Source of the DNA: Mycobacterium sp. 155 | GTDB taxonomy: Bacteria > Actinomycetota > Actinomycetes > Mycobacteriales > Mycobacteriaceae | Direction: 5' to 3' | NCBI RefSeq assembly: GCF_000373905.1 | Contig: NZ_KB892705.1 | Span: forward strand, 4,290,478 to 4,354,477 | DNA length: 64,000 nucleotides | Part shown: positions 4,328 through 19,890 of the stretch, one piece after another | Position numbering within the stretch: position 1 is the stretch's first letter | Layout: each line of letters starts with the position of its first letter | Position numbers and translations under genes: made by a program | Notes under the pieces: model-generated | The model's input: the letters and a program-made list of their open reading frames with translations, nothing else | Database searches by the model: none | Told to the model about the DNA's origin: nothing

Positions 4328-5749
4328 CTACGGCCGCGCCCGAGCCTGGTGATGGAATCGCCGTCGACGGACCTTCAGCGAGCTCCATTCACCGAGAGAG
4401 ACACCCGCCGCGAGCGCAGTGCTGATCGCCAACGCCCCCAAGACCGAGGAGAATCCCACGTAAGTCTGCTCGTTCAGAATCGCGTAGATGCCGTGGAGCA
4501 GGGACAGGCCCGGCAGCAGCGGAGTGATACCCGAAATCGACACGAGCAGCGGTGGGGCGAGATGGCGGCGCTCCATCAGTTGCCCGACCAGGCCGACCGG
4601 AACCGCGGCGATGAACGACGATGTCACGGGACCCAATCCCATGCTCAGCCCGATTAGATAACCGACGATGGCGGTGGCGCCGCCGAACGCCGCGGCCACC
4701 GCTGCCTTGCGTTCGGCGTAGCAGGCCAGGGCGAACGCTGCCGCACTGGCCGCGCCGAATGCCACCCGCACGGGCATTTCGGCCAGCGCGGGCGGTGCGG
4801 TCGCGCCCATGTCGATGGCCGGCGCCCCGAACCGGTTGGCGAGGTGTAGGACCAAGGCCACCCCGGCGATCGTCGCGGCGGTCAGCATGAGCAACTCGAA
4901 GAAGCGGCCCGCGGCGGTCACAGGTGCACCGGCGATGACGTCGCCGACCGAGCCCACCAGCGACAGGCCGGCGAGGATCACCACCAGGCCGGCCGCGATG
5001 GCCACAGTCGGTTCGAACGGCACGCCTTTCTTGAGGCACAGCCAGAAGATCACCAGCGGTGGCGCGGTCGCGATCACCCCGCCGATCGCGTACTGGAAGA
5101 AGAACGGGAGACCCTGCTTGTTCAGGTGGCGGTTGACGCGGTCGATCAACATGGTGCTCAACGCACTGACCAGACATACCAGCAGGCTGCCGCCCAAGGT
5201 TCCCGCGGTCGCGAATGCCAGTGCGCCCCACGCGAGGGTCGCGACCCAGCGCTTGTAGGGATGCGGGGCGGTGATGATGGCGTCCAGCTCGGCGTGCGCA
5301 TCCGCTGGGCTCAGCTTCTGCGCGGTGATGCGCCGGATCAGCCGGCCGAGCGCCGCCAGCCGACTGAAGTCCATGGACCTGGAGTGGACGATGTGCATCG
5401 AGCTGGCCGGCGGCAGCGTGGGCCCGCGGTACACCGCGATGTGTATCGCCGTGTTGATGACATCGACTTCGCAGTGCTCGATCCCGTACGCGGACACGAC
5501 TTTGGTGACCTGGTGCCCAGTGGCAACCGCCGGTGTCCCCGACGCCATCAGGACCGATCCGAGGGTGCCAGCGAGGTCGAGCACCGCGCCGACGCGCGCA
5601 TCGTAGAAATCGTCGGGTGCTTTCCGGTCGGGTTTGATCAGAGGGAAACTGTCGGTCGGTGCCTCGGTCTCCCGGACGATCCGGCTCAAGATTCTGCGTT
5701 GACGAGCCCGCCGCTGAGGCTGGCCCGCAGGATCACCGGTCAACGGCAA
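4328..5749 (-). CDS. thrE: ThrE-family threonine/serine exporter
   Basis: A 473-residue inner-membrane protein resembling Corynebacterium glutamicum ThrE, which exports L-threonine and L-serine. The N-terminal half is soluble-looking (DUF1212-type: DFYDARVGAVLDLAG, then EVDVINTAIHIAVYRGP). About ten hydrophobic spans follow, with a C-terminal ThrE_2-type half (VTSSFIAAVPVGLVGQ). The start is a TTG: AAGGAG lies three bases before the TTG at 5749 and nine before the in-frame TTG at 5743, so 5743 may be the true start. It sits between moeA2 and the SDR gene, where M. tuberculosis has nothing. The family call is firm; the substrate is inferred. Confidence 0.85.
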   Translation of the reverse strand: MPLTGDPAGQPQRRARQRRILSRIVRETEAPTDSFPLIKPDRKAPDDFYDARVGAVLDLAGTLGSVLMASGTPAVATGHQVTKVVSAYGIEHCEVDVINTAIHIAVYRGPTLPPASSMHIVHSRSMDFSRLAALGRLIRRITAQKLSPADAHAELDAIITAPHPYKRWVATLAWGALAFATAGTLGGSLLVCLVSALSTMLIDRVNRHLNKQGLPFFFQYAIGGVIATAPPLVIFWLCLKKGVPFEPTVAIAAGLVVILAGLSLVGSVGDVIAGAPVTAAGRFFELLMLTAATIAGVALVLHLANRFGAPAIDMGATAPPALAEMPVRVAFGAASAAAFALACYAERKAAVAAAFGGATAIVGYLIGLSMGLGPVTSSFIAAVPVGLVGQLMERRHLAPPLLVSISGITPLLPGLSLLHGIYAILNEQTYVGFSSVLGALAISTALAAGVSLGEWSSLKVRRRRFHHQARARP

Positions 5750-5786
5750 GAACTCCTTTTTGGTACATGTGGGTCGCCTGCCGGAG

Positions 5787-6710
5787 CTACACCGGGTAGC
5801 TCACGCCGGTCAGCTCCTCCGACACTGTCCACAACCGGCGCTGCAGGTCCACATCGTGCGACTGCTTGCTGGACTGGACGAGCTTCGGGTAGCCGCGCAG
5901 CTCGCGGAATCCGGACGGACCGTAGTACTGGCCGCCGCGCACCGCCGGATCGGTCGCCGCTCGCAGCGTGGCCAGGGCTCCCGTGAGTGCGCTGTTGGTG
6001 ACCAGAGCCGTGAGTTGGCTGACACCCGGTAGCCCGGCGCCGGGAATGTGGCGCGTGAGTTCTGTGTCGGAGATCCCCGGGTGGGCGGCCACGGCGATGG
6101 TGGGCTCGTTCTTCGCGGCGAGCCGACGCTGCAGTTCGTAGGTGAACAGCAGATTCGACAGCTTGGACTGCCCGTAGGCGGCCACCCGGTTGTAGCTGTG
6201 TTCCCACTGCAGATCGTCGAAGTGGATAGCGGCCTGAATGCGGTGGGCAATGCTGGCAACTGCGACGACGCGCGAGCCGTCGACCGGCAGCAGATGGTCG
6301 AGCAGCAGCCCCGTCAGAGCGAACGCGCCCAGATGGTTGGTGCCGAACTGCAACTCGAAGCCGTCGACGGTGGTCTGCTTCGGCGGATACATCACGCCGG
6401 CGTTGTTGATCAGCAGATCGATACGCGGATATGCGGCCCGCAGTTCGTCGGCGGCAGTACGCACCGAGTCCAGCGAGCCCACGTCCAGCTGCTGCAGCTT
6501 GAGGTCGGCTTTCGGAGTCGACGCGGTGATACGGTCGACGGCTTCGCGGCCCTTGTCCAGGTTGCGCACCGCGATCACCACATGCGCGCCCTTGCCGGCC
6601 AGCACGCGCGCGGTCTCATACCCCAGGCCGGTGTTGGAGCCGGTGACGATGGCGATCCGGCCCGATTGGTCGCTGACGTCGGCCTCGGTCCACTTCGCGG
6701 TGGCGCTCAT
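5787..6710 (-). CDS. Short-chain dehydrogenase/reductase (Rv0439c type)
   Basis: A 307-residue NAD(P)-dependent SDR of the retinol dehydrogenase/protochlorophyllide-reductase-like group. The Rossmann motif TGSNTGLG is at about residues 23-30, NNAG near 100, and the catalytic YGQSK near 178. It fills the Rv0439c slot. The substrate cannot be told from sequence. A TAGAGT box lies seven bases before the ATG, so the transcript is probably leaderless. It is divergent from the HAD hydrolase gene across a 94-base gap. Confidence 0.88.
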   Translation of the reverse strand: MSATAKWTEADVSDQSGRIAIVTGSNTGLGYETARVLAGKGAHVVIAVRNLDKGREAVDRITASTPKADLKLQQLDVGSLDSVRTAADELRAAYPRIDLLINNAGVMYPPKQTTVDGFELQFGTNHLGAFALTGLLLDHLLPVDGSRVVAVASIAHRIQAAIHFDDLQWEHSYNRVAAYGQSKLSNLLFTYELQRRLAAKNEPTIAVAAHPGISDTELTRHIPGAGLPGVSQLTALVTNSALTGALATLRAATDPAVRGGQYYGPSGFRELRGYPKLVQSSKQSHDVDLQRRLWTVSEELTGVSYPV

Positions 6711-6717
6711 GGGTAAA

Positions 6718-6723
6718 ACTCTA
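6718..6723 (-). promoter_or_regulatory. -10 element for SDR gene (leaderless type)
   Basis: TAGAGT on the minus strand, seven bases before the ATG at 6710, with no Shine-Dalgarno sequence between. Confidence 0.5.
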
Positions 6724-6792
6724 CGGAGTATTCGGGCATGCTCGACGTATCGATCGCATGACGCTTCTGATCCAGAACATCCGCCGAGCGTT

Positions 6793-6798
6793 TATTGT
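6793..6798 (+). promoter_or_regulatory. -10 element for HAD hydrolase gene (leaderless type)
   Basis: TATTGT followed by six bases and ATG at 6805. No ribosome binding site is visible. Confidence 0.5.
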
Positions 6799-6804
6799 CG
6801 CTGC

Positions 6805-7620
6805 ATGGCGATCGGTGGCGTGCTTTTCGACATCGACGGCGTGCTCGTCACGTCGTGGCAGCCGATTGCCGGGGCTGCCGAAACACTGCAGGTGCTCAGC
6901 GACCATCAGATAGCCCGGTCCTATCTGACGAATACCACCACCCGTACCCGCGCGCAGATCGCCGAGTTGCTGGCCGGCGCGGGCATGGAGGTCGACGCCG
7001 GCGAGGTCATCACTGCCGCGGTCCTCACCGCCGACTACGTGCGTGACCGGTATCCCGATGCCCGATGTTTCCTGGTCAACAACGGACAGATCGACGAGGA
7101 CATGCCCGGTGTCGACCTGGTGTATTCGAGTGAATTCACCGGGCCGCGAGCCCCCGAGACACCCGACGTGGTGTTGCTCGGCGGCGCCGGGCCGGAGTTC
7201 AGCCATCTGACGCTGAGCTGGGTCTACGACTGGATGGCCCAGGGTGTTCCGGTCGTCGCCATGCACCGCAGTACCTCGTGGAACACGGCCGACGGACTGC
7301 GGGTGGACACCGGCATGTATCTGATCGGCATGGAGGAGACCTCCGGCCGCAAGGCGATCGCGGTGGGCAAGCCCGCACCGGAAGGATTTCTCGCCGCGGC
7401 CAACCGGCTCGGCCTCGATCCCGAAGAGATGTGCATGATCGGCGACGACCTCAACAACGACGTACTGGCCGCACAGGTAGTCGGCATGACCGGGGTGCTG
7501 GTACGGACCGGCAAGTTCCGTCAGAACACGTTGGACCGTTGGGCTGCAGACGAATTCGCGATGCAGCCCAACCATGTCATCGACTCGGTGGCCGGCCTGC
7601 CGGAGCTGCTCGGGCTGTAA
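6805..7620 (+). CDS. HAD-superfamily phosphatase (NagD/LHPP-like, subclass IIA)
   Basis: 271 residues. Motif I is DIDGVL at residues 8-13 (nucleophile and general acid Asp). Motif II is in the LTNTTTRTRAQI segment. The lysine is in VGKPAPEGF, and motif IV is MIGDDLNNDVLAAQ. The large C2-type cap between motifs II and III fits subclass IIA phosphatases such as LHPP, HDHD2 and NagD. The likely activity is on a small phosphate ester; the substrate is unknown. I take the ATG at 6805 because homology begins there and a TATTGT box lies six bases upstream. Confidence 0.88.
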   Translation: MAIGGVLFDIDGVLVTSWQPIAGAAETLQVLSDHQIARSYLTNTTTRTRAQIAELLAGAGMEVDAGEVITAAVLTADYVRDRYPDARCFLVNNGQIDEDMPGVDLVYSSEFTGPRAPETPDVVLLGGAGPEFSHLTLSWVYDWMAQGVPVVAMHRSTSWNTADGLRVDTGMYLIGMEETSGRKAIAVGKPAPEGFLAAANRLGLDPEEMCMIGDDLNNDVLAAQVVGMTGVLVRTGKFRQNTLDRWAADEFAMQPNHVIDSVAGLPELLGL

Positions 7621-7631
7621 GAGCGCGCACG

Positions 7632-9338
7632 TCAGGCCTTGAGGGTGCGGACCGCCTCGATACGCTCCTTGAGCTGCTGCGTGGTCGCCGCGGCCACGGG
7701 CGGTCCACCGCAGATGCGGCGCAGCTCGTTGTGAATCCAGCCGTGCGGCTTGCCGGTGCGGTGGTGCGCGATGGTCACCAGCGCGTTCAGTTCCCGGCGC
7801 AGATCCCGCAATTGGCCATGCGTGGTGCGTGACGGCGGCGGGCCGCCCGCTGCCGCTGCTTCGGCTGTGCGCTTGGTGAGTTGCTCATCCTGCCTGCGGC
7901 GCAACAGGTCTCGCATCTGCTCGGCATCGAGCAGGCCGGGGATGCCGAGATAGTCGGCCTCTTCGTCGCTGCCGGCGGGCGTCGCCGTGCCGAAGGAGGA
8001 GCCGTCGAAGATGACCTGATCCAGCTCGGCGTCCGCGCCGAGGGACTCGAAGCCGTTCTCCAGTTCGTCCTTCTCGTCTTTGCGTTTCTCGGCGGCTTCC
8101 AATGCCTCGTCATCGAGCCCGTCGGACTCGCGGTGCGGCTTGCCCAGCACATGGTTGCGCTGGGCTTCCATCTCGCTGGCCAGCAGCAGCAGGTTGGGCA
8201 CCGATGGCAGGAAGATGCTCGCGGTCTCGCCCGCACGGCGTGATCGCACGAACCGACCGATGGCTTGGGCGAAGAACAGCGGCGTCGACGCACTCGTCGC
8301 GTACACACCGACCGACAGGCGCGGCACGTCGACACCCTCCGACACCATGCGCACCGCGACCAGCCAGCGGCTGGTGCCTTCTGAGAACCGGCTGATGCGG
8401 TCCGACGCGCCCGGATCGTCGGAAAGCACCACGGTCGGAGCTTCGCCGGTGATCTTGGTGAGCAGGTCGGCGTAGGCGCGGGCCGTGGTCTGGTTGGTGG
8501 CGATGATCATGCCGCCGGCATCGGGCACGTGCCGGCGCTTCTGCTGCAACCGCGTGTCGGCCGCGGCGATGACGGCGGGCATCCATTCCCCGGCCGGGTT
8601 CAGCGCGGTCCGCCAGGCTCGCGCGGTCTGCTCGGCGGTCAGTGGTTCACCGAGGCGGGCCGCATGTTCCTCGCCGGCGCTGTCACGCCAGCGGGCCTCG
8701 CCGGAGTAGGCCAGGAACACCACGGGCCGCACCACGCCGTCGGTCAGCGCGTCGGAATAGCCGTACACGTGGTCGGCCTGGGAGCGCTGGAAACCACTCT
8801 CGTCGGGCTCGTAGGTGACGAACGGGATGGGGCTGTCGTCGCTGCGGAACGGGGTGCCGGTCAGGGCGACGCGTCGGCTGGCATCGCTGAAGGCCTCGCG
8901 CATCGCGTCGCCCCAGCTCTTCGAGTCACCGCCGTGGTGGATCTCGTCGAAGATCACCAGCGTCCTGCGATTCTCGGTGCGCACCCGGTGCCGAGTGGGG
9001 TGGCTGGCCACCTGGGCGTAGGTGACGACGACGCCGTGGTACTCGGACGAGGTCTGCGAGTCTGAGTTGCTGAACTTCGGGTCGAGGGCGATGCCGTTGC
9101 GCGCGGCCGACTGCGCCCACTGGATCTTGAGGTGTTCGGTGGGCACCACCACGGTGATCGCGTCGACCGTGCGGTCGCCCAGCAGCTCGGCCGCGATCCG
9201 CAGCGCAAACGTCGTCTTGCCTGCGCCGGGAGTGGCGACCATCAGATAGTCACGAGGTTTGCTGGTCAGATACCGCACCAGCGCCTTGCGCTGCCAGCCC
9301 CGAAGTGCCTGGGTGCTGGGCGCCGCATCAGCCCGCAC
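7632..9338 (-). CDS. Superfamily II DEAD/DEAH-box helicase
   Basis: 568 residues. Walker A is ATPGAGKTTFA, motif II is FDEIHHGGDS (DEIH), and motif III-like is LTGTPFRSDD. The second RecA lobe has SEGVDVPRLSVGVYAT and motif VI QAIGRFVRSRR, as in the SSL2/UvrB-like (COG1061, ResIII) group. The C-terminal 130 residues are charged and may bind nucleic acid. The GTG start at 9338 is preceded by AGGAG at good spacing; an open frame continues upstream to 9917 but crosses the deacetylase gene and shows no homology. It converges with the HAD gene 11 bases away. Probable role: DNA or RNA unwinding in repair; the partner is unknown. Confidence 0.88.
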   Translation of the reverse strand: MRADAAPSTQALRGWQRKALVRYLTSKPRDYLMVATPGAGKTTFALRIAAELLGDRTVDAITVVVPTEHLKIQWAQSAARNGIALDPKFSNSDSQTSSEYHGVVVTYAQVASHPTRHRVRTENRRTLVIFDEIHHGGDSKSWGDAMREAFSDASRRVALTGTPFRSDDSPIPFVTYEPDESGFQRSQADHVYGYSDALTDGVVRPVVFLAYSGEARWRDSAGEEHAARLGEPLTAEQTARAWRTALNPAGEWMPAVIAAADTRLQQKRRHVPDAGGMIIATNQTTARAYADLLTKITGEAPTVVLSDDPGASDRISRFSEGTSRWLVAVRMVSEGVDVPRLSVGVYATSASTPLFFAQAIGRFVRSRRAGETASIFLPSVPNLLLLASEMEAQRNHVLGKPHRESDGLDDEALEAAEKRKDEKDELENGFESLGADAELDQVIFDGSSFGTATPAGSDEEADYLGIPGLLDAEQMRDLLRRRQDEQLTKRTAEAAAAGGPPPSRTTHGQLRDLRRELNALVTIAHHRTGKPHGWIHNELRRICGGPPVAAATTQQLKERIEAVRTLKA

Positions 9339-9495: not shown

Positions 9496-10293
9496 GTGAT
9501 CACCAGGCGGGGATTTCTCGCCGCCACCGCGGCAACCGCCGTCGGCTCACTGGCCGCCCTCGGTTCATTGGCCAGCGCCGGTGCGCCGCGCGCCTGGGCC
9601 AACCCGGTGCCACCTGACCCCGGCAGCATCGCGAGTCTCAACCGCGGTCGGGTCCCGAGGCGGTGGGGGACCGCACTGCCCGGCATCATGACGTCGTTCA
9701 CGCCAACCGGTCGGCAGGTCGCCCTCACCTTTGACGCCTGTGATGGCGCATGCGATGACGCGTTGCTCAACACCCTGCAGGACCACGGTGTGCCCGCGGT
9801 GCTGTTCTTCAACTGTCGGTGGATCGACCGCAATGCAGACCGGGCCGCGCAACTGGCGGCCAATCCGCTGTTCCAGATCGGCAACCACGGCACCCGGCAT
9901 GTTCCGCTGTCGGTCACCGGTCGGTCGGCCTACGGGATCGCCGGCACCCGGTCGGTCGACGAGATCGTCGACGAGGTGTGGCGAAACCATCAGCGGCTCA
10001 CCGCGCTGACCGGCAGAGCACCCGTCTGGTTCCGGCCCGGCACCGCGTACTACGACGACGTGGCCGTCGACATCGTTCACCAGCTCGGCGAGCAGCCACT
10101 CGGTTTCACGGTCAACGGCGACGCCGGCGCGACGGCATCGGCTGCGAGGGTCCGTAGCAATCTGACGTCGGCGACGCCGGGGTCCATCGTGATCGCGCAT
10201 ATGAACCACCCGAACTCGGGCACCCACATCGGCATCGCCGACGCGATCCCGCAGATGCAGGCCGCCGGTTGGCAGTTCGTCACACCGTCGTGA
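9496..10293 (+). CDS. Tat-exported polysaccharide deacetylase (NodB/CE4 family)
   Basis: 265 residues, beginning with a twin-arginine signal (TRRGFLAATAATA, hydrophobic stretch, then a cleavage-like SAGAPRAWA). It is therefore probably folded before export to the cell wall. NodB motif 1 appears as LTFDACDGACDD, the actinobacterial TFDAC variant of TFDDG. The metal-binding HxxxH is HGTRH. Motif 3 is RPGTAYYDD and motif 5 is around VIAHMNHP. The family removes acetyl groups from peptidoglycan or other polysaccharides, and which one is not shown. The GTG at 9496 is chosen because it places the Tat motif at the N-terminus. Confidence 0.85.
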   Translation: MITRRGFLAATAATAVGSLAALGSLASAGAPRAWANPVPPDPGSIASLNRGRVPRRWGTALPGIMTSFTPTGRQVALTFDACDGACDDALLNTLQDHGVPAVLFFNCRWIDRNADRAAQLAANPLFQIGNHGTRHVPLSVTGRSAYGIAGTRSVDEIVDEVWRNHQRLTALTGRAPVWFRPGTAYYDDVAVDIVHQLGEQPLGFTVNGDAGATASAARVRSNLTSATPGSIVIAHMNHPNSGTHIGIADAIPQMQAAGWQFVTPS

Positions 10294-10407
10294 CGCCTTG
10301 GCGGCTCGGATAGCCACGCCCGTCCGGAGTAGCCGGCTGGTACGCGCGCTGAGGCGCACTGCGCGCTTTAGGATGGCCACGGCGGCAACATTGAAGGGCG
10401 GCGCCGG

Positions 10408-11337
10408 GTGCAGCGGACTCCATCCATAGTGGGTGTGGTGGGCGGTGACGGCCTTATCGCGAGATTCGGCGATGTCGTCGCGTACGTCGGTGATCAGGGC
10501 GAACAGGCGGCGGCAGTACTGGCCGCTGTCGAGTCGGCATCCCACGGGCCGCGTCCAGGTATGGCGGTGGCCGAACGGATAGCACCCGCCGTGTTCGGGG
10601 TAGTAGCTCGCGATGTGCCGTGTGGGATCGTCGCAGCCGTCAGCGAAGGCCTGTTGGTGTTGCTGCACGGTGCGGTGACCGCCGACATCGAGACCCCGCG
10701 AGGCAAGCAGTGCCTGTCTGGCAGCAGTGGGCCGGCCTGGGTCCAGACGACGCTGCCCGATCCGGTGCTCAATGTGGTGCTGCATGGCAGCCGGCATCGG
10801 GGCGCTCGAATGATTCCGCACACCGATCTGCGGGAGGGCGTGGTTCCGGGCGGCGGTTTCGCGGCGATACACGACGAGGCCCCGATCGCCGCACCCGCGC
10901 CGGCGCAGATCGTCGCTACCGAACGCATACCTTCGGCGGCAGACCTCGGCCGGACCGCACAGTTCAGCGGCCCGGAAGCACCGGCGCATACCGCAGCCGT
11001 CGACCTTCGGGGCGGTGCCTTGATCACCGAGGACGGCGCGATATACCCGTTGGACCGGCCCTATGCGATCGGACGGGCTCCGCTCGCCGACGAGTCCGTG
11101 CGCACCGCGATGGCGTCACCGATCGTCGTCCCCTACGACCCGTACGTATCGCGCGTGCACGCATACGTCACGGTGGCCGACGGCACGGTGTTCGTCACCG
11201 ACGCGGGTACGCACGCGGGGACCTTCATCGCCGCCCCCGGCGCGAAGGACTGGACGCGGGTGGGCACCGCGCCGGCCCGGCTCGAGCCAGGGTGGAGCAT
11301 GCGGATCGGGGGCTGGATCGCCACGTTCCAGCCGTGA
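10408..11337 (+). CDS. FHA-domain protein with unassigned N-terminal region
   Basis: 309 residues, with a GTG start at 10408. The C-terminal 95 residues form a forkhead-associated domain (YAIGRAP..., SRVH, then THAGTFI), which binds phosphothreonine. The usual NG(T/N) turn is changed to HAGT but the GR and SRxH residues remain. The N-terminal 210 residues (VGVVGGDGLIARFGDVVAYV...) are not a family I recognise; they contain no obvious membrane span or catalytic motif. It converges with the large FHA-redox fusion 11 bases away, and a Ser/Thr kinase lies beyond that, so it is probably part of the same phospho-signalling unit. FHA call firm, function unknown. Confidence 0.75.
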   Translation: MQRTPSIVGVVGGDGLIARFGDVVAYVGDQGEQAAAVLAAVESASHGPRPGMAVAERIAPAVFGVVARDVPCGIVAAVSEGLLVLLHGAVTADIETPRGKQCLSGSSGPAWVQTTLPDPVLNVVLHGSRHRGARMIPHTDLREGVVPGGGFAAIHDEAPIAAPAPAQIVATERIPSAADLGRTAQFSGPEAPAHTAAVDLRGGALITEDGAIYPLDRPYAIGRAPLADESVRTAMASPIVVPYDPYVSRVHAYVTVADGTVFVTDAGTHAGTFIAAPGAKDWTRVGTAPARLEPGWSMRIGGWIATFQP

Positions 11338-11348
11338 CCGCGGCACCC

Positions 11349-14300
11349 TCAGCGTACGGGCGACGGGCGCTCGGCGAGCACGCTCCAGTCCCCGGCCCGC
11401 AGCGCCGCGTAGGCGTCGCGGCTCACCTCGGCACCTGACCGAACCGCCTTCTGCGCGCTAGTCACGTCCGCGGGATGGTGGCCCAGGACGGTGGCGCCCA
11501 CCGCACGCCCGTCGGACAGCACCAATCGACGGTAGGACGGTACCTCGGGTCGGTCGATGACGATGACATCGTCGGTTCCGGATGCCTCCACCTGACCAGT
11601 CGAGAACAGCTCCAACCCAACACCTTTCAGGATCGTCGCGGGTGTCTCAGCCGTCAGGACGATGTCGCCGCCGAGCGCGTTGACTGCGGCCGCTTCCGCT
11701 TGCTGGACGGCAATCGGCCACAGCCCCAGCACCTTTCCGTTGTGTTCGGCGACGTCACCGGCGGCGTAGATCCACCGCACCCGCGTCCGCATGTGGTCGT
11801 CGACCAGCACGCCGCGCCCGACCGGGATTCCCGCGTCACGGGCCAGGTCCACGTTCGGGCTGATCCCGGTCGCGGCGAGGAATAGCTCGCAGGTCAATGT
11901 GCGGCCGTCCTTGAGCACCGCGCCCGTCACCGCGGGCGTGCCGACGAGCCGGTCCGTCTCGGCGCGGTGGATCACGGTGATTCCCGCCCTGGCGAAATGC
12001 ATTTCAACGATCTCCGAACAGCGGGCGTCGAGCTGGCGGCTGAGTAGCCGGGCGCCGCGCTCGAGCACTGTGACGTGCAGACCGAGAAGATGCAGGGCAT
12101 AGGCGGCCTCGAGTCCCAGCAGGCCCCCGCCGGCAACCACCGCCCGCCGACAGCCGTGCTGTTGGACATACGAACGCAGCCGCATCGCATCACCGGCCTG
12201 CCGGAGCGCGAAGCTTCCGGGTCGGTGCAACCCGTGGATCGGCGGTGTTGTCGCACTGGAACCCATCGCCAGGATCAGCCGATCGTAGGGCAGTGTTTCG
12301 CCCGTGCCCAGCAACACGCGCCTGCCCCGGATATCGATGCGCCGCGCCAGCGTGTTGAGCCACCCATGCACCTGGTGGTCGTCGAACCATTGTTCGGGCA
12401 ACAGATACAGACCCTGCATGGCCGTGCGGCCGTACACAATCCGTGAAATGCCCATTCGGTTGTACAGCATGTGCGGCTCTTGCCCGACAAGGTGGATCTC
12501 GCAGTCGGGATGGCCGCGGCGGACGAAGTCGGCGGCGGTGATGCCGGCGATGCCCCCGCCGATGATCACTACGCTGACGATCGAGCGGTCATAGCGAGTC
12601 GAGCTCGTCCCGCGTCCGTCACCGGGTTCCGGTGTGAGCGAGACGGTCACGGTGCCCGAGCTGATCCGGGCGCAACACGCCATCCGGGTGGACTTGCCCA
12701 AGCCGAGGCGTCGCAACGTGTTGAGCTCATCCTGGTCGGGGCCCGACAGACACGAGGCGCCGTCGAGAATGGCCACCGGGTCAGCGCCGCACACTCCCAT
12801 CCGGCAGCCGGCCTCGATCGGCTGACCGTTGGCCTCGGCCGCGTCGAGCACACTCATTCCCGGATCGACGGGCACCGCGTCGCCGTCGGCTTCGAACCGG
12901 ACCGCTGCTCCACTGTCGACGGGTGCGCTGGTATCCGGTTTGGAACGCCGCAACAGAACTGGTGCCTGCCGCATTCCCGCCGTCCAGGCGAACTGCAGCT
13001 CCACGACCCGGGTGCGCGCGATCCAGAGCAGCGTCAGTGCGGCGATGAGCGCGCTGATCCCCCAACGCAGCCAGCCGACCTCCATCCCGGTCACGGTCCT
13101 GAACGAGGCGGCCAGGACGGGGCCGGCGAACCAGTAGAAGATGTTGAGCGCCGCGGCGGCGTAGCCGATAGCGACCATTGCGGGGCTCAGCGGCGAAACC
13201 GCCTCGACCGCATAGAAAGACCCGACACTGACCAATACGAACAGTGCGAGCAGCGAATACCTCTCCAGCGGGTGCATGCCCGCGTCGCCGACGGCGGTGA
13301 AGAAGCCGAGGATGAACCCGGGCAATGCGGCGATGAACAGCTTGCGCGGCCCGGTCCATCCCCGGTCGGTGTCGTTCAGGTCGGCCTGGTAGGCCGCGCG
13401 CGGTTTGAAGTCATAGCAGTTCTTCGCGCAGCCAACGCAACTCGGGCAGTGACTGTTGGCCACCGTGATGTACGGGGTCTGGCCGTAGGCGCGCTGCACC
13501 GGGAACAGCGGGCAAATGCTGCTGCACCAGCCACTCTTGCCTTTGAAGACGTAACCTCCGGCGAACGCCACCGCTGCCACCACCGTCAGCACGGCACCAG
13601 TGGCGACACCGCTGTGGTCCAGACCCATCAACCGAGACCCCGCGATCCCGAAGAACAGTGCCATCGCGATCAGAAATCCGCGGTTGCGCAACCAGTCCGG
13701 TGGATCGAGAGCGCGGCCGAAACCAAGGACTCGCGGGATCTGGTTGGTCGCGGCGAGGGGACAGATGTTGCGCCAGAAGCCCGGCGCGACGAGGAAAAGT
13801 AGCGGTAACAACGGCACAACCACGCCGAAGAAAACGAACAGGCCGACGGATGGATACACGAAAAGTGTTGCGATCAGCGCGAAGTACCCGACAATGCTGA
13901 GGACGCGGATGGCTTGCCACACGCGCAGCGGTAACCGCGCCGGCAGTTCGGTGTATGCCGGAAAGAGGTCACGCTCCCCGGTGGGGTCGATGCCGAGCAC
14001 CCTCTCTGCCACGGCGACGATCGGCGACGGCGGGGTTTCGGGGGCCGGCGGCGGGGGCGGCGAGACGGCGACGAGGCCGAGGCGCGTCGCGTCGTAGTCC
14101 GGCGGGATCACCGGACGCTCGGCGGTGGCGGGCGCGCCAGGCGCCGACAGCACGATGATCTCGGACTGCCCGAGCCGCAGGACGTCGCCGGTGGACAGCG
14201 TGGCGCGGCCGGTCAATCGGATGCCGTTGAGCGTGGTCCCGTTGCGGCTGTCGAGATCGATCACCGACAAGGCTGTCGGGCTGGGCACCACCCGCAAATG

Positions 14301-14453
14301 CTCGCGTGAGACTCCTTCGTCGGTGAGATTCACACCGGCACAGTCCCTGCCGAACATTATCGGGCCGGTGAGCGCGAGCCGCCGCGGCGGCCGACCCCGC
14401 TCCCGGATCTCGATCAACGGCTTGCGTCGGCTCATTGCACCGCTCGTTCCCAT
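11349..14453 (-). CDS. Four-module fusion: FHA, membrane 4Fe-4S, 2Fe-2S ferredoxin, FAD/NAD oxidoreductase
   Basis: 1034 residues. (1) FHA domain, about residues 14-102, with the pThr-binding GR, SREH and NGT all intact. (2) A proline-rich linker, then about six or seven membrane spans (roughly 180-480) resembling NosR/NapH/CcoG polyferredoxins. Its cysteine motifs are C231 (NICPL), C310 and C314 (CSSICPL), and C336-C339-C342-C346 in Cx2Cx2Cx3C. (3) A plant-ferredoxin-like domain, about 515-608, with C550 and C555 but Asp558 where the third cysteine is expected, plus C568, C593 and C594. (4) An FAD/NAD(P) oxidoreductase, about 625-1034, like NirB or rubredoxin reductase (GGGIAG, AGGGLLGLEAA, IYAAGDVAEH). 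A likely path is NAD(P)H to FAD to 2Fe-2S to 4Fe-4S; the final acceptor is unknown. ATG 14435 is an alternative start. Divergent from the kinase gene. Confidence 0.88.
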   Translation of the reverse strand: MGTSGAMSRRKPLIEIRERGRPPRRLALTGPIMFGRDCAGVNLTDEGVSREHLRVVPSPTALSVIDLDSRNGTTLNGIRLTGRATLSTGDVLRLGQSEIIVLSAPGAPATAERPVIPPDYDATRLGLVAVSPPPPPAPETPPSPIVAVAERVLGIDPTGERDLFPAYTELPARLPLRVWQAIRVLSIVGYFALIATLFVYPSVGLFVFFGVVVPLLPLLFLVAPGFWRNICPLAATNQIPRVLGFGRALDPPDWLRNRGFLIAMALFFGIAGSRLMGLDHSGVATGAVLTVVAAVAFAGGYVFKGKSGWCSSICPLFPVQRAYGQTPYITVANSHCPSCVGCAKNCYDFKPRAAYQADLNDTDRGWTGPRKLFIAALPGFILGFFTAVGDAGMHPLERYSLLALFVLVSVGSFYAVEAVSPLSPAMVAIGYAAAALNIFYWFAGPVLAASFRTVTGMEVGWLRWGISALIAALTLLWIARTRVVELQFAWTAGMRQAPVLLRRSKPDTSAPVDSGAAVRFEADGDAVPVDPGMSVLDAAEANGQPIEAGCRMGVCGADPVAILDGASCLSGPDQDELNTLRRLGLGKSTRMACCARISSGTVTVSLTPEPGDGRGTSSTRYDRSIVSVVIIGGGIAGITAADFVRRGHPDCEIHLVGQEPHMLYNRMGISRIVYGRTAMQGLYLLPEQWFDDHQVHGWLNTLARRIDIRGRRVLLGTGETLPYDRLILAMGSSATTPPIHGLHRPGSFALRQAGDAMRLRSYVQQHGCRRAVVAGGGLLGLEAAYALHLLGLHVTVLERGARLLSRQLDARCSEIVEMHFARAGITVIHRAETDRLVGTPAVTGAVLKDGRTLTCELFLAATGISPNVDLARDAGIPVGRGVLVDDHMRTRVRWIYAAGDVAEHNGKVLGLWPIAVQQAEAAAVNALGGDIVLTAETPATILKGVGLELFSTGQVEASGTDDVIVIDRPEVPSYRRLVLSDGRAVGATVLGHHPADVTSAQKAVRSGAEVSRDAYAALRAGDWSVLAERPSPVR

Positions 14454-14523
14454 GATGCTGGTTTGCTAGATCGTACGTGTGGCGGGGCAACGGCGGCATC
14501 CGAACAGGGCTATCCAGTCGCCG

Positions 14524-14533
14524 ATAGCGCTAT
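14524..14533. promoter_or_regulatory. Perfect 10-bp palindrome in divergent promoter region
   Basis: ATAGCGCTAT lies in the 91-base gap between the fusion gene and the kinase gene and overlaps the kinase -10 element. It could be an operator acting on one or both promoters. No regulator gene is adjacent. Confidence 0.35.
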
Positions 14534-14538
14534 AGACT
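14533..14538 (+). promoter_or_regulatory. -10 element for Ser/Thr kinase (leaderless type)
   Basis: TAGACT followed by six bases and ATG at 14545. No Shine-Dalgarno sequence lies before the ATG. Confidence 0.5.
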
Positions 14539-14544
14539 TCCGGC

Positions 14545-16296
14545 ATGCCATTGGCACCTGGTGACGCATTCGCGGGATTCGCGATCCAGCGGCTGCTCGG
14601 GGCAGGCGGAATGGGCGAGGTCTATCTCGTCGACCATCCGAGATTGCCCCGTCGCGAAGCACTCAAGATTCTGCCGTCGACCGTCACGGCCGACACCGAG
14701 TTTCGTCTACGGTTCAATCGGGAAGCCGATGTTGCCGCCGCGCTGTGGCATCCGCACATCGTTGCTGTGCACGACCGCGGTGAATTCGATGGCCAGCTAT
14801 GGATCTCGATGGACTATGTCGAGGGGATCGACGCGGCTGCGCTCGTGCGGGATCATTTCCCGACCGGTGTGCCCACGCCCTTTGCGACGGAGATCATCGA
14901 CGCCGTTGCCGAGGCGTTGGACTATGCCCACGAGCGCGGCCTGCTCCATCGCGACGTCAAGCCGGCGAACATTCTGCTCAGCGACTCCGATCCTGCGGCG
15001 CGCGGGCGTCGAATACTGTTGACCGACTTCGGAATTGCGCGCCGAATGGACGATGCCAGCGGGCTGACCGCGACGAATATGACGGTCGGCTCCATCGCCT
15101 ATGCGGCGCCCGAACAGCTGATGGGCTCGTCGTTGGACGGGCGCGCCGACCAATACGCCCTGGCCGCCACCGCTTTCCACCTGCTCACCGGGAAGGCGCC
15201 GTTCGACAACTCCAATGCCGCGGTGGTCATCAGCAGCCATCTCTCGGCGCCGCCACCGCTGTTGGCGGACCGCAGGCCCGACCTGGCGCATCTGGACCCG
15301 GTGATATCCCGAGGCATGGCCAAGAATCCCGCGGATCGGTTCGCGAACTGTCATGAGTTCGCCCAAGCGCTGAGCAGCCAGGTCGAAGCGGCGCCGCCGG
15401 TAGACCATGCCACGATGGTGGCTCCGCTGGCCGCGGAGTATCCCGCCGACCAGGTGACGCAGGCCGCGCGTCCGTCGGTTCCGCCGTCACCGACGTCACC
15501 ACCGCCCGCTGTAGCCGCGAAATCCGGCGGACGGCGCATATGGATCGCCGCCGCCGTGCTCGCCGCCGTACTCGCGGTGGTTGGTGGTGTGATCCTGATA
15601 CCGCGGTTGACCGGCACGGACGCCGCGCAGCCGTCTGGGTCGGAAACTCAGACGTCGGGGGTGTCGACGGCAGAACCGACCTCGATCGCGGCCAAATCGA
15701 CGGAAGCTGCAGCACCATTGGTCACTGCGGCCGACGTGTCGCGGTTACTGCTGACGGACAATATGCTCAGCACCGTTGTCGGCGCGCGGGTCGACACCGT
15801 CGACACGTACAGTGCGCCCTTCGACACCACCGGTGTGATCGAGCCCGCCGAGTGCGCCGGAGCGGTGCTCACCGGCTCGGGCATGGTCTACGACCACGTC
15901 GGCTACCTCGCGTTGCGTCAAGTGGTCGCCTTCCCACCCGAAGGGAATCCGTCGAACGTGTTCGTCGAGCAAACAGTTGTGCTGGCGCCCACCGCGGACA
16001 TAGCGGCGCAGGTCCGCGCCAACTCGCAACGGCAGTGGCAGAACTGCTCGGGCACGGTTGTCACGAATAGCGACCCGCACTGGACCACCACACCGCGAGA
16101 CGTGCAGGTCCGAGGGGATCTGATCGTGCTCGATCGCCCTGTAGGCGAATACACGGTGCCGAACTATCGGTGTCAGCACACCATGGGCGTCTGGTCCAAT
16201 GTCATCGCTGAGGCATTGGTGTGCAACGACACCGACATCGGCGAGCAGTCGCAGACCATCGTGGAACGGATCCTGGCCGCCGCGGCCAAAGCCTGA
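14545..16296 (+). CDS. Membrane Ser/Thr protein kinase with PknH-like extracellular sensor
   Basis: 583 residues. The Hanks-type kinase domain (about 10-275) has every key motif: glycine loop GAGGMGEVY, catalytic lysine in [18 protein letters not shown] in LTDFGIAR, and APE in AAPEQL. The activation loop contains SGLTATNMT, with threonines suited to autophosphorylation. A proline-rich juxtamembrane segment leads to one membrane span (about 331-351). The outer part (about 390-583) resembles the PknH_C sensor: four cysteines (ECAG, NCSG, RCQH, VCND) could form two disulfides. It is divergent from the FHA-redox fusion, the obvious candidate partner, and lies 256 bases before groEL2. Its ligand is unknown. 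Confidence 0.92.
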
Positions 16297-16504: not shown

Positions 16505-18178
<1,674 letters not shown>

Positions 18179-18196
18179 GTCCTGCTCTTTTACGGG

Positions 18197-18229
18197 AAAG
18201 CCCGGCTCCTTTTGGGAGCCGGGCTTTTT
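18197..18229 (+). terminator. Intrinsic terminator of groEL2
   Basis: A 13-base stem (AAAGCCCGGCTCC paired with GGAGCCGGGCTTT) around a five-base loop, running into a T tract. It is one of the few classical Rho-independent terminators here and also faces the end of the PE-PPE gene. Confidence 0.92.
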
Positions 18230-18242
18230 CGATTCTGCAGCG

Positions 18243-19694
18243 CTACGCGGCGTTCTTGTCGTCGCTGGTATCGGTCTTTGGCTTGGCGGTCTTCGAAGTG
18301 CCGGGGTGGGGGAGTGATTTGGCGGCATCTCGCAGTGACGGCATCTTCGGCAGGCCCGAAGACCGTTGTGATGCAGACAGTTTCGGTGGCTTCAGGGTCT
18401 TCTTGAGGTCGGTTCGAACGCCGGTCTTGACGTCGGTGGCAGCCGGCGCCTCGGATGCGGTCGCGGCGGGTTTCGTCAGCGAGGGCAGTGCCAGCGGGAT
18501 CAACCGCGCCGGCTTCTCGGAAGGCGTTGAATTGATCTGTGCGGCAGTAGCATTCGTGGGTGCTTGGACCTGAGTCGGTTCGGTGGCGATCCCGGTGTGT
18601 ACGGCCGGCGGTGGGTCCTGGAAGTTGTTGACACCCTGCTGGGCCGCGCCCGGCAGAGCCTGGGCGGCCTCGATGACCTTTTGTGGCGGCGTGATGAAAC
18701 TGAACTGCGTCGCAGTGGCGGGGCTGGTGGTGCGGTCGTAACCCATGTCGACGACCGTCCGCACGACGGGCTCGACGGCGTCGATGCCACCCTGCGACAC
18801 GCCCAGCACGTCAGCGGCTTGGCGCAGGGGCATCAGCAGCGGCAGGTGATCGGTGTGGATCACATAGTAGGTGGTGGTAGCCTCGCCGTCCTGGTTGACG
18901 ACGGTCTTGGTGGAGCCATCCGAGTAGTGGTAAGTCGTTGTGTCGCCGTTCGTTTCAATGCTCACTGCGTTGGCGTCGGAATACTGGCTCATGTCGATGT
19001 TGTCGTAGTTGGCGTCAGGATGCACATACACCACCGCCGCCGCTGCGTTCGCCAGTGACAACGGGTTGAAGTACGCCGGGAAGTCGCCGTAGGGGTCGTA
19101 CTCCCGAGTGATGTCGGTGGTCGTGAACTGATCCGGGCCCACCGCGCCGGTGGACTGGATGTCCGCCAAAGGCACGTAGAGCCAAGGGAATCGGGCGAAG
19201 ATGCCCCCGTTGGGCTTGTTGGCGTTGGCGATGAGGACGAACTCGAGGTTCGCCGGCGCATTGTCAGGGTCCGTGTTGAGCTCCTGCCGCTGCTTGTTGG
19301 CCACTACGGCACCGAGGGAATAACCGACGACGACAATGTGATCGTCAGGGGTGTTGGGCGAGCCCGAATTCGCGATTGCCGCGCCGAGTTGGCCGTTACC
19401 GTCATTCACCGACTGCGCAAAGGTCGGTGCCGTGAGTCCGCTGACCGGCCAGATCGATGCCAAATACTCGACACCGTTCGCGTCGCTGTACTGCCCGTCG
19501 AGCTTGTTCTTGATGTTGCTGCTGGACGGGTCGTCGTTGCCGCCCACCCCGATCACATAGTTCGCCAAAGTCGCGGCGATGGTCGGGCTGTTCAGCGCGA
19601 CCGGGGTGATGAGTACACAGCTGGCGGCGACCGCCGCAGTACCCGCGACAGACCGACGAGCTGACCGCTCGTTACGCGCATGACGACCAGACAT
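18243..19694 (-). CDS. Secreted stand-alone PE-PPE-domain serine hydrolase
   Basis: 483 residues from the ATG at 19694, which has GGGAGGG five bases upstream. A basic N-terminus and a hydrophobic stretch (SVAGTAAVAASCVLITPVAL) look like a signal peptide or anchor. The next 230 residues match the PE-PPE domain (PF08237), an alpha/beta-hydrolase fold: GYSLGAVVAN carries the GxSxG nucleophile and is followed by ANANKPNGGIFARFPW. The C-terminal 120 residues are low-complexity and Pro/Lys-rich. No PE or PPE N-terminal domain is present. Family members show esterase or lipase activity. It sits where M. tuberculosis has ppe10, beyond the Rv0441c ortholog. Confidence 0.88.
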   Translation of the reverse strand: MSGRHARNERSARRSVAGTAAVAASCVLITPVALNSPTIAATLANYVIGVGGNDDPSSSNIKNKLDGQYSDANGVEYLASIWPVSGLTAPTFAQSVNDGNGQLGAAIANSGSPNTPDDHIVVVGYSLGAVVANKQRQELNTDPDNAPANLEFVLIANANKPNGGIFARFPWLYVPLADIQSTGAVGPDQFTTTDITREYDPYGDFPAYFNPLSLANAAAAVVYVHPDANYDNIDMSQYSDANAVSIETNGDTTTYHYSDGSTKTVVNQDGEATTTYYVIHTDHLPLLMPLRQAADVLGVSQGGIDAVEPVVRTVVDMGYDRTTSPATATQFSFITPPQKVIEAAQALPGAAQQGVNNFQDPPPAVHTGIATEPTQVQAPTNATAAQINSTPSEKPARLIPLALPSLTKPAATASEAPAATDVKTGVRTDLKKTLKPPKLSASQRSSGLPKMPSLRDAAKSLPHPGTSKTAKPKTDTSDDKNAA

Positions 19695-19890
19695 ACAGAC
19701 CCTCCCGCATATGCCCGCCGCGCCGAGGGCAAAGCCATGACGCGTTGGTGATGAGACAGTAACGGCCGACTCACCCCGCTGCAATGCGATTCGGGCAAAC
19801 TCGTAGCGGGAGGTATTTCCGTGGTCAACTAGATGGGGTGCCGCGAGATATGGCTAACTCGGGGCGCAGATCTCCGGAGATCGGAACTAC

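Follow-up and report, generated by a model that had tools for sequence, protein, structure and literature searches.

A membrane oxidoreductase core predicted to pair with either a phosphothreonine or a cyclic-nucleotide reader

The stretch of DNA analysed here, the window, comprises 64,000 nucleotides of Mycobacterium sp. 155 (contig NZ_KB892705.1). An original prediction, made from the letters alone, had placed in it a kinase-linked redox relay gated by a phosphothreonine-binding FHA domain. Calling of open reading frames (ORFs) in the window gave three ORFs at the positions claimed. A second FHA gene, fha2, occupies 10408–11337 on the plus strand (309 aa). The fusion gene, on the minus strand at 11349–14453, encodes 1034 aa with no break in frame and joins an FHA domain, a membrane Fe-S module, a ferredoxin and an FAD/NAD(P) domain. 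A receptor-type Ser/Thr kinase of 583 aa is encoded at 14545–16296 on the plus strand. The fusion is divergent from this PknH-like kinase, with 91 bp separating the ORFs, and convergent with fha2, with 11 bp between them, so that the predicted layout and its coordinates are confirmed.

Pfam matches on the fusion protein were FHA (residues 34–95, E 7e-11), Fer2 (526–597, E 5e-7), Pyr_redox_2 (627–919, E 7e-58) and Rubredoxin_C (938–992, E 2e-9). A protein search with the fusion gave 1464 matches (E ≤0.001), and the 120 best, which were listed, were mostly full-length with 61–78% identity. For alignment A1, 77 rows were chosen from 35 of these 120 listed proteins, 41 loci (numbered L below) and the window, and the FHA domain was in frame with the core in 46 of the 77. 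Conservation of the core is given from a 67-row alignment where counts are out of 67, and that of the FHA domain and linker from the 46 FHA-bearing rows. Because orthologues of the same layout span several actinobacterial genera, the fusion is not a sequencing artefact, and a sequencing or assembly error joining two genes is excluded by the large number of these orthologues. Judged by Pfam and by its in-frame homologues, the 1034-aa ORF is one intact, conserved gene whose product carries all the claimed parts in a single chain.

Relatives of the core without an FHA domain were found mostly outside actinobacteria, and at 36 of 44 such loci a stand-alone cyclic-nucleotide (cNMP)-binding protein adjoins the core. 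Its gene lies upstream on the same strand, at most 132 bases away or overlapping (190 bases in L071), and is downstream only in L045. In L071 (Andreprevotia sp. IGB-42) the core itself is spread over three overlapping ORF pieces (9964–12580) and is apparently broken. No cNMP partner was found at eight of the 44: the upstream side was in full view at L022, L047 and L083, the contig is cut 5' of the core at L029, L040 and L082, and L073 and L074 encode the membrane module alone. L029 counts among the FHA-less loci solely owing to its cut 5' end. The partner was also present at L124 and L126, two FHA-less loci from a draw of genomes from the class. A GE...RS motif, presumably the phosphate-binding cassette, is kept in the partner (E in 38/39, R in 37/39 and S in 36/39), and the partner at L079 matches PF00027 with E 2.5e-19. 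The one FHA-less Mycobacterium copy examined (L022) has neither fha2 nor kinase. Three loci have both an FHA-fused core and a cNMP-binding protein, namely L030 and L031 from Streptosporangiaceae metagenome-assembled genomes (MAGs) and L033 from an Acidimicrobiales MAG. The stronger and new result is that, as read from gene content and sequence, one conserved membrane oxidoreductase core pairs with either a phosphothreonine reader or a cyclic-nucleotide reader, the FHA domain being one of two exchangeable inputs. This swap of readers suggests a redox enzyme into which different signalling systems can be plugged.

In a core tree of 76 rows, obtained by a quick search with rooting not tested, all 39 FHA-fused rows entered, together with L029 and L022, fall on one side of a branch with 100% support. 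This fits a single gain of the FHA domain on a cNMP-type ancestor followed by a later loss in L022. The scan of named genome contigs gave 75 loci. Class III cyclases were seen in eight of the loci scanned, by Pfam in L031, L041, L054 and L077 and by an in-house profile in L029, L030, L061 and L080; L126 also gave a match with the in-house profile, and weaker matches in L013 and L063 were not counted. A gene with both FHA and class III cyclase domains lies between the fusion and fha2 in L031 (5787–7244, Pfam), and the in-house profiles gave genes of this composition in L030 (5387–6844) and in the 5'-cut L029 (2760–3869). CHASE2-cyclases stand near cNMP-type cores in L054 and L077 (Pfam), and L061 and L080 have members of this family too. 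If the cNMP-binding protein is set aside, gene families are shared around FHA-less cores only in small sets (among the 45 clusters listed), such as the CHASE2-cyclase family at four loci and an HD-domain family in four alphaproteobacterial MAGs. Twenty neighbours scanned with Pfam included a helicase, tRNA synthetases, an MBOAT enzyme, GGDEF/EAL proteins and a multihaem cytochrome, among others. With flank families recurring only in such small sets, the identity of a substrate was not obtained from the neighbours. The fusion-type gene has a rare and patchy distribution: at an E cut-off of 1e-100, with FHA-less forms and the window's own genome included, it was found in 12/396 genomes of the genus, 4/394 of the class draw and 2/396 of the phylum draw. 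A smaller genome draw gave 2/100.

The membrane module (12981–14024, minus strand; residues 144–491) has eight predicted helices. C231, C310, C314 and the cysteines of C336-x2-C339-x2-C342-x3-C346 are each present in 67/67 rows, in loops taken as cytoplasmic. No conserved His was found in any predicted membrane helix of the 67-row alignment, the only column with His in at least 60% of rows being H335 (62/67), in the Fe-S loop. A transmembrane haem wire was rejected on this ground. Of the transmembrane redox relay originally proposed, the Fe-S motifs in a membrane module stand; the term transmembrane claims too much, as the Cys loops are predicted to be cytoplasmic and the helices lack conserved His. 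For these two reasons a membrane acceptor such as a quinone appears likelier than a transmembrane wire. The Fer4_5 match of the window's module is sub-threshold in Pfam (18.6 bits against a cut-off of 22), and 17 of 20 relatives match Fer4_5 at E up to 1, the best at 7e-5. Anaerolineae and Bacteroidetes MAGs (L073, L074 and L076) have the membrane 4Fe-4S module alone, as a protein of about 360–400 residues without ferredoxin or FAD domain.

The 2Fe-2S ferredoxin domain (12663–12878, minus strand; residues 526–597) has C550, C555, D558 and C593 as its presumed ligands. The plant-type pattern of four cysteines, C-x4-C-x2-C...C, is absent, though the Pfam Fer2 match stands. D558 takes the place of the third Cys and is Asp in 67/67 and 77/77 rows, across phyla; the best-aligned PDB ferredoxin has Cys at the equivalent position. 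This replacement had escaped mention in the original prediction. E. coli SdhB is a precedent for an Asp-ligated 2Fe-2S cluster, of which the literature looked at gave no confirmation. An invariant Asp in a plant-type ferredoxin site raises a separate and directly testable question of cluster chemistry. The ferredoxin-reductase-type domain (11478–12575, minus strand; residues 627–992) has the two-Rossmann FAD/NAD(P) fold and Gly-rich motifs of the TodA/BphA4/putidaredoxin reductase type. CoA-disulfide and persulfide reductases, which have an active-site Cys, are similar in fold, yet the invariant columns hold no such Cys after the first FAD motif, and this identity was rejected. NirB was likewise rejected, its model covering only positions 1–392 of 794 with 240 bits against a cut-off of 578, and Pfam gave no nitrite/sulfite reductase domain in the fusion. 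P0002, P0004, P0010 and other listed homologues are labelled nitrite reductase (NADH) large subunit by one source, and because the window protein has no nitrite reductase domain this NirB-type naming of relatives looks misannotated.

The FHA domain of the fusion (14169–14354, minus strand) scores 42.8 bits in Pfam against a cut-off of 20.7. R36, S49, H52, N71, G72, N76 and G77 are present in 46/46 FHA rows and R50 in 44/46, and the Gly-Arg, Ser-Arg-x-His and Asn-Gly residues among them are taken to form the phosphopeptide site. The claim of a complete phosphothreonine site therefore holds as regards residues, which are intact and conserved. A disordered linker follows (14043–14129, minus strand; residues 109–137, pLDDT <50), containing a candidate phospho-threonine, T123 (codon 14085–14087). 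This position is Thr in 38/46 rows and Ser in 1/46, and the adjacent linker residues are mostly variable. Its setting is often (D/E)xDxT(R/Q), with Asp at -2 in 29/46 rows. The acidic residues thus fall mostly at -2 and -4, and they compare only loosely, with no test applied, with the kinase motifs given in a section of PMC7164672, where acidic residues are reported at -1 and -3 to -6 before Thr.

The N-terminal half of fha2 (10417–10878, plus strand) has a PP2C-like predicted fold, which the original prediction had missed. It is followed by a linker threonine, T195 (10990–10992), which is Thr in 23/25 rows and N-terminal to the FHA domain (11068–11307, Pfam). The likeness to PP2C is in fold only: homology by sequence was not supported, no likeness being found to the genome's own PstP, the single sequence used as target (hhalign probability 0.1%). 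PP2C phosphatases have a conserved set of metal-binding Asp residues. In the fha2 domain a conserved catalytic acid set was not found, as judged by conservation and not mapped onto the structure, and acids are kept in at least 80% of rows only at positions 140 (23/25) and 30 (D or E, 21/25).

The window kinase has a Pkinase domain (residues 14–227; 14584–15225) with HRDVKP, DFG and APE motifs, a single predicted hydrophobic segment (about 15538–15600) and a PknH_C domain (residues 393–578; 15721–16278), all on the plus strand. Neighbours were assigned with in-house profiles for kinase, cyclase, cNMP-binding, FHA and fha2 proteins, built from 3–6 seeds each. ORF calling in the relatives' loci was mechanical, with a GC-position filter, and places starts too early in L009, L012, L030 and L031. 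L029 and several other loci are cut by contig ends, and L076 is missing from the neighbour table. L097, L099 and L107 were judged duplicates of L010, L063 and L022 and each pair was counted once. A Ser/Thr kinase lies within about 2 kb at 27 of 40 FHA-fused loci, and fha2 adjoins 36 of the 40. The initial set of 31 loci, window included, gave fha2 at 27, kinase at 19 and a cNMP-binding protein at 3; genus regions added nine new loci, with fha2 at 9/9 and kinase at 8/9. Acceptance of fha2 in L034 and L036 was on its FHA domain and place alone. It was not found at L015, L033 and L060, where contigs end, or at L064, where the neighbour downstream of the fusion appears transporter-like on inspection of its sequence. 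Among the FHA-less loci a kinase-like ORF was seen in only 2/44 (L074 and L080), more than 3 kb away in each.

The placement of the kinase varies between clades: divergent upstream, co-directional upstream, or beyond fha2. In a quick tree with long branches flagged, for which the window genome's kinases and two more from Antrihabitans supplied the only outsiders, the locus kinases form a window/Antrihabitans group, a group of other Mycobacterium, a Nocardia/Geodermatophilus/Actinomycetospora group and L098 alone. The split between the first two rests on a branch below 95%; given the supported branches, membership of the locus must have been gained or lost at least three times. That the fusion has been paired with different kinases several times over speaks for a functional link between kinase and fusion. 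Close paralogues of the window kinase in its own genome reach 69%, and that genome (4.6 Mb) has 19 kinase-like stretches, fragments included. Of the 13 FHA-fused loci where no kinase was found, five have at least one short flank (L015, with only the upstream side in view, L030, L031, L033 and L034). No kinase was found within 6–10 kb viewed on each side in Nocardia (L014, L020, L024, L025 and L064) and Nocardioides (L035 and L036), or in about 8 kb in view in Mycobacterium L096. The suggested co-occurrence is thus partly supported, in several lineages and orders. The association is not universal, and fha2 is a tighter partner than the kinase. In L096 an ABC transporter with two FHA domains (5268–7784) lies between fha2 and the fusion, a layout which is presumably Rv1747-like. 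In five Nocardia loci (L016, L017, L018, L037 and L060) the kinase is preceded by two gene families that seem to form an operon with it and the fusion; they gave no Pfam match in L018, nor did the one also tested in L016.

In known mycobacterial systems the genes of PknH and EmbR, and of PknF and Rv1747, are neighbours. These kinase–FHA substrate pairs are described in sections of PMC6213207 and PMC5549992, Rv1747 being an ABC transporter, and for PknQ–MupFHA part of PMC4238996 reports genes near each other and FHA proteins phosphorylated by neighbouring kinases. The present locus is alike in that a kinase gene adjoins an FHA gene. However, the effector in those pairs is a transcription factor, a transporter or a small FHA protein, and here it is a membrane oxidoreductase of flavin/Fe-S type that includes a ferredoxin of its own. 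GarA and OdhI are also alike, as FHA proteins with a phosphorylatable Thr motif which regulate a redox enzyme (2-oxoglutarate dehydrogenase), but they are small and act in trans, whereas here the FHA domain is fused to the enzyme. Their ETTS motif is N-terminal to the FHA domain, whereas the linker Thr of the fusion is C-terminal; T195 of fha2 precedes its FHA domain. The phosphorylatable ETTS motif is given in part of PMC8546545.

Unlike putidaredoxin reductase–putidaredoxin and TodA/BphA4, the enzyme is a single chain fused to a membrane Fe-S module, with Asp in place of the third ferredoxin Cys, and among the 20 Pfam-scanned neighbours neither a P450 nor a dioxygenase was noticed. NirB large subunit shares the FAD/NAD(P) domain, but its nitrite/sulfite reductase domain has no counterpart in the fusion. 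NapH, NosR and RdhC are alike in having Cys-Pro motifs in the membrane module and then a 4Fe-4S motif. Of the two CX3CP motifs of NapH/NosR the second is present (C310-x3-C314-P), whereas the first is reduced to C231-P, an invariant W227 replacing its first Cys. Compared with the NapH family the module has one ferredoxin motif and eight predicted helices; it scores 18.2 bits against a curated NapH cut-off of 234, and 18/20 relatives give weak NapH matches, at E up to 1 with the best at 2e-5. NapH is proposed to oxidise quinol in a section of PMC5928378. A protein of this composition was not described in the titles and abstract openings listed from open-licence PMC literature, which is weak evidence.

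In the preferred reading, to which a probability of roughly one half is given, the product of the locus is an NAD(P)H oxidoreductase that is anchored in the membrane and regulated by phosphorylation. Electrons would pass from NAD(P)H through FAD, [2Fe-2S] and [4Fe-4S] to an acceptor in the membrane, for which a distant likeness to NapH makes a quinone the most likely candidate. The kinase would phosphorylate the linker Thr of the fusion, of fha2 or of both; the FHA domains would then bind the phosphorylated Thr of their own chain or of the other protein, and the binding would switch or position the oxidoreductase. In most FHA-less relatives the cNMP-binding partner would do the same job. Several observations weigh against this reading. 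For eight of the 13 kinase-less loci the kinase would have to be encoded elsewhere, L098 by itself makes up one of the three kinase lineages, and few other kinases were sampled. Thr is missing at position 123 in 8/46 rows, including all three from Nocardioides, and the conservation counts are inflated by related rows, at least one strain having been entered twice (P0076 and L013). The NapH likeness behind the quinone acceptor is weak, as its score shows. A sequence search of solved structures with the membrane module gave only a spurious FlhB match (E 0.1), and fold searches, filled by the reductase domain, gave no match informative on the fold of that module. The predicted structure of the fusion has a pTM of 0.63 and its domain arrangement is not reliable.

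Other explanations place the regulation elsewhere. The FHA domain might be a scaffold which holds the oxidoreductase next to the kinase, fha2 or another phosphoprotein at a membrane site, with electron flow unchanged by phosphorylation. The lack of a conserved catalytic acid set in fha2 would suit a scaffold or pseudophosphatase, the FHA domain is tethered to the core by a disordered linker, and in FHA-less relatives the partner is a separate protein. However, exchange of the FHA domain for a ligand-binding cNMP domain at the same core fits a regulated input better than anchoring, and the conserved linker Thr fits a switch, so that a scaffold seems rather unlikely. The direction of signalling might instead be reversed, the NAD(P)H or quinone pool setting, through its redox state, the conformation of the Fe-S sites, which FHA or cNMP-domain contacts report to kinase, cyclase or fha2. 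The class III cyclases near these cores, and the scarcity of gene families shared by FHA-less flanks, are in keeping with this. A complete NAD(P)H/FAD/2Fe-2S/4Fe-4S chain nevertheless exceeds the needs of a sensor, and cNMP-binding domains read a messenger and do not make one, which renders a sensor improbable. The adjacency of the kinase could also be incidental, housekeeping kinases serving the FHA domain and the neighbouring kinase having another job. This agrees with the absence of a kinase beside 13 of the 40 FHA-fused loci and with the other kinases that the genome's 19 stretches would make available. It is hard to square with a fusion whose neighbouring kinases come from about three lineages, in gene orders that differ between clades, when on a rough estimate from 19 stretches in 4.6 Mb chance would put a kinase within 2 kb at only a few per cent of sites, and incidental adjacency is accordingly very improbable.

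Beyond the kinase, a GroEL-type chaperonin gene, recognised from its sequence alone, lies at 16520–18178 and runs directly into a tRNA-Lys gene (18178–18272). A PE-PPE domain protein (Pfam) is encoded at 18243–19784 on the minus strand.

The regulated oxidoreductase can be placed, more tentatively, in a wider frame. A widespread membrane NAD(P)H oxidoreductase may have its electron output directly gated by exchangeable signalling modules, by a cyclic nucleotide through a separate protein in most lineages and by phospho-threonine through a fused FHA domain and a PP2C-like FHA pseudophosphatase in actinobacteria, some lineages having both. The known targets of bacterial Ser/Thr kinases lie in transcription, the cell envelope and the TCA cycle, according to a section of PMC6213207. 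If the present reading is true, a phospho-reader fused to a flavo-iron-sulfur enzyme of the membrane would link electron flow directly to receptor kinases, and the natural exchange of FHA and cyclic-nucleotide readers at one core would provide a ready comparison for whether both inputs regulate the same step. The core would then be the point at which cAMP and Ser/Thr phosphorylation plug in to control the entry of electrons into the membrane.
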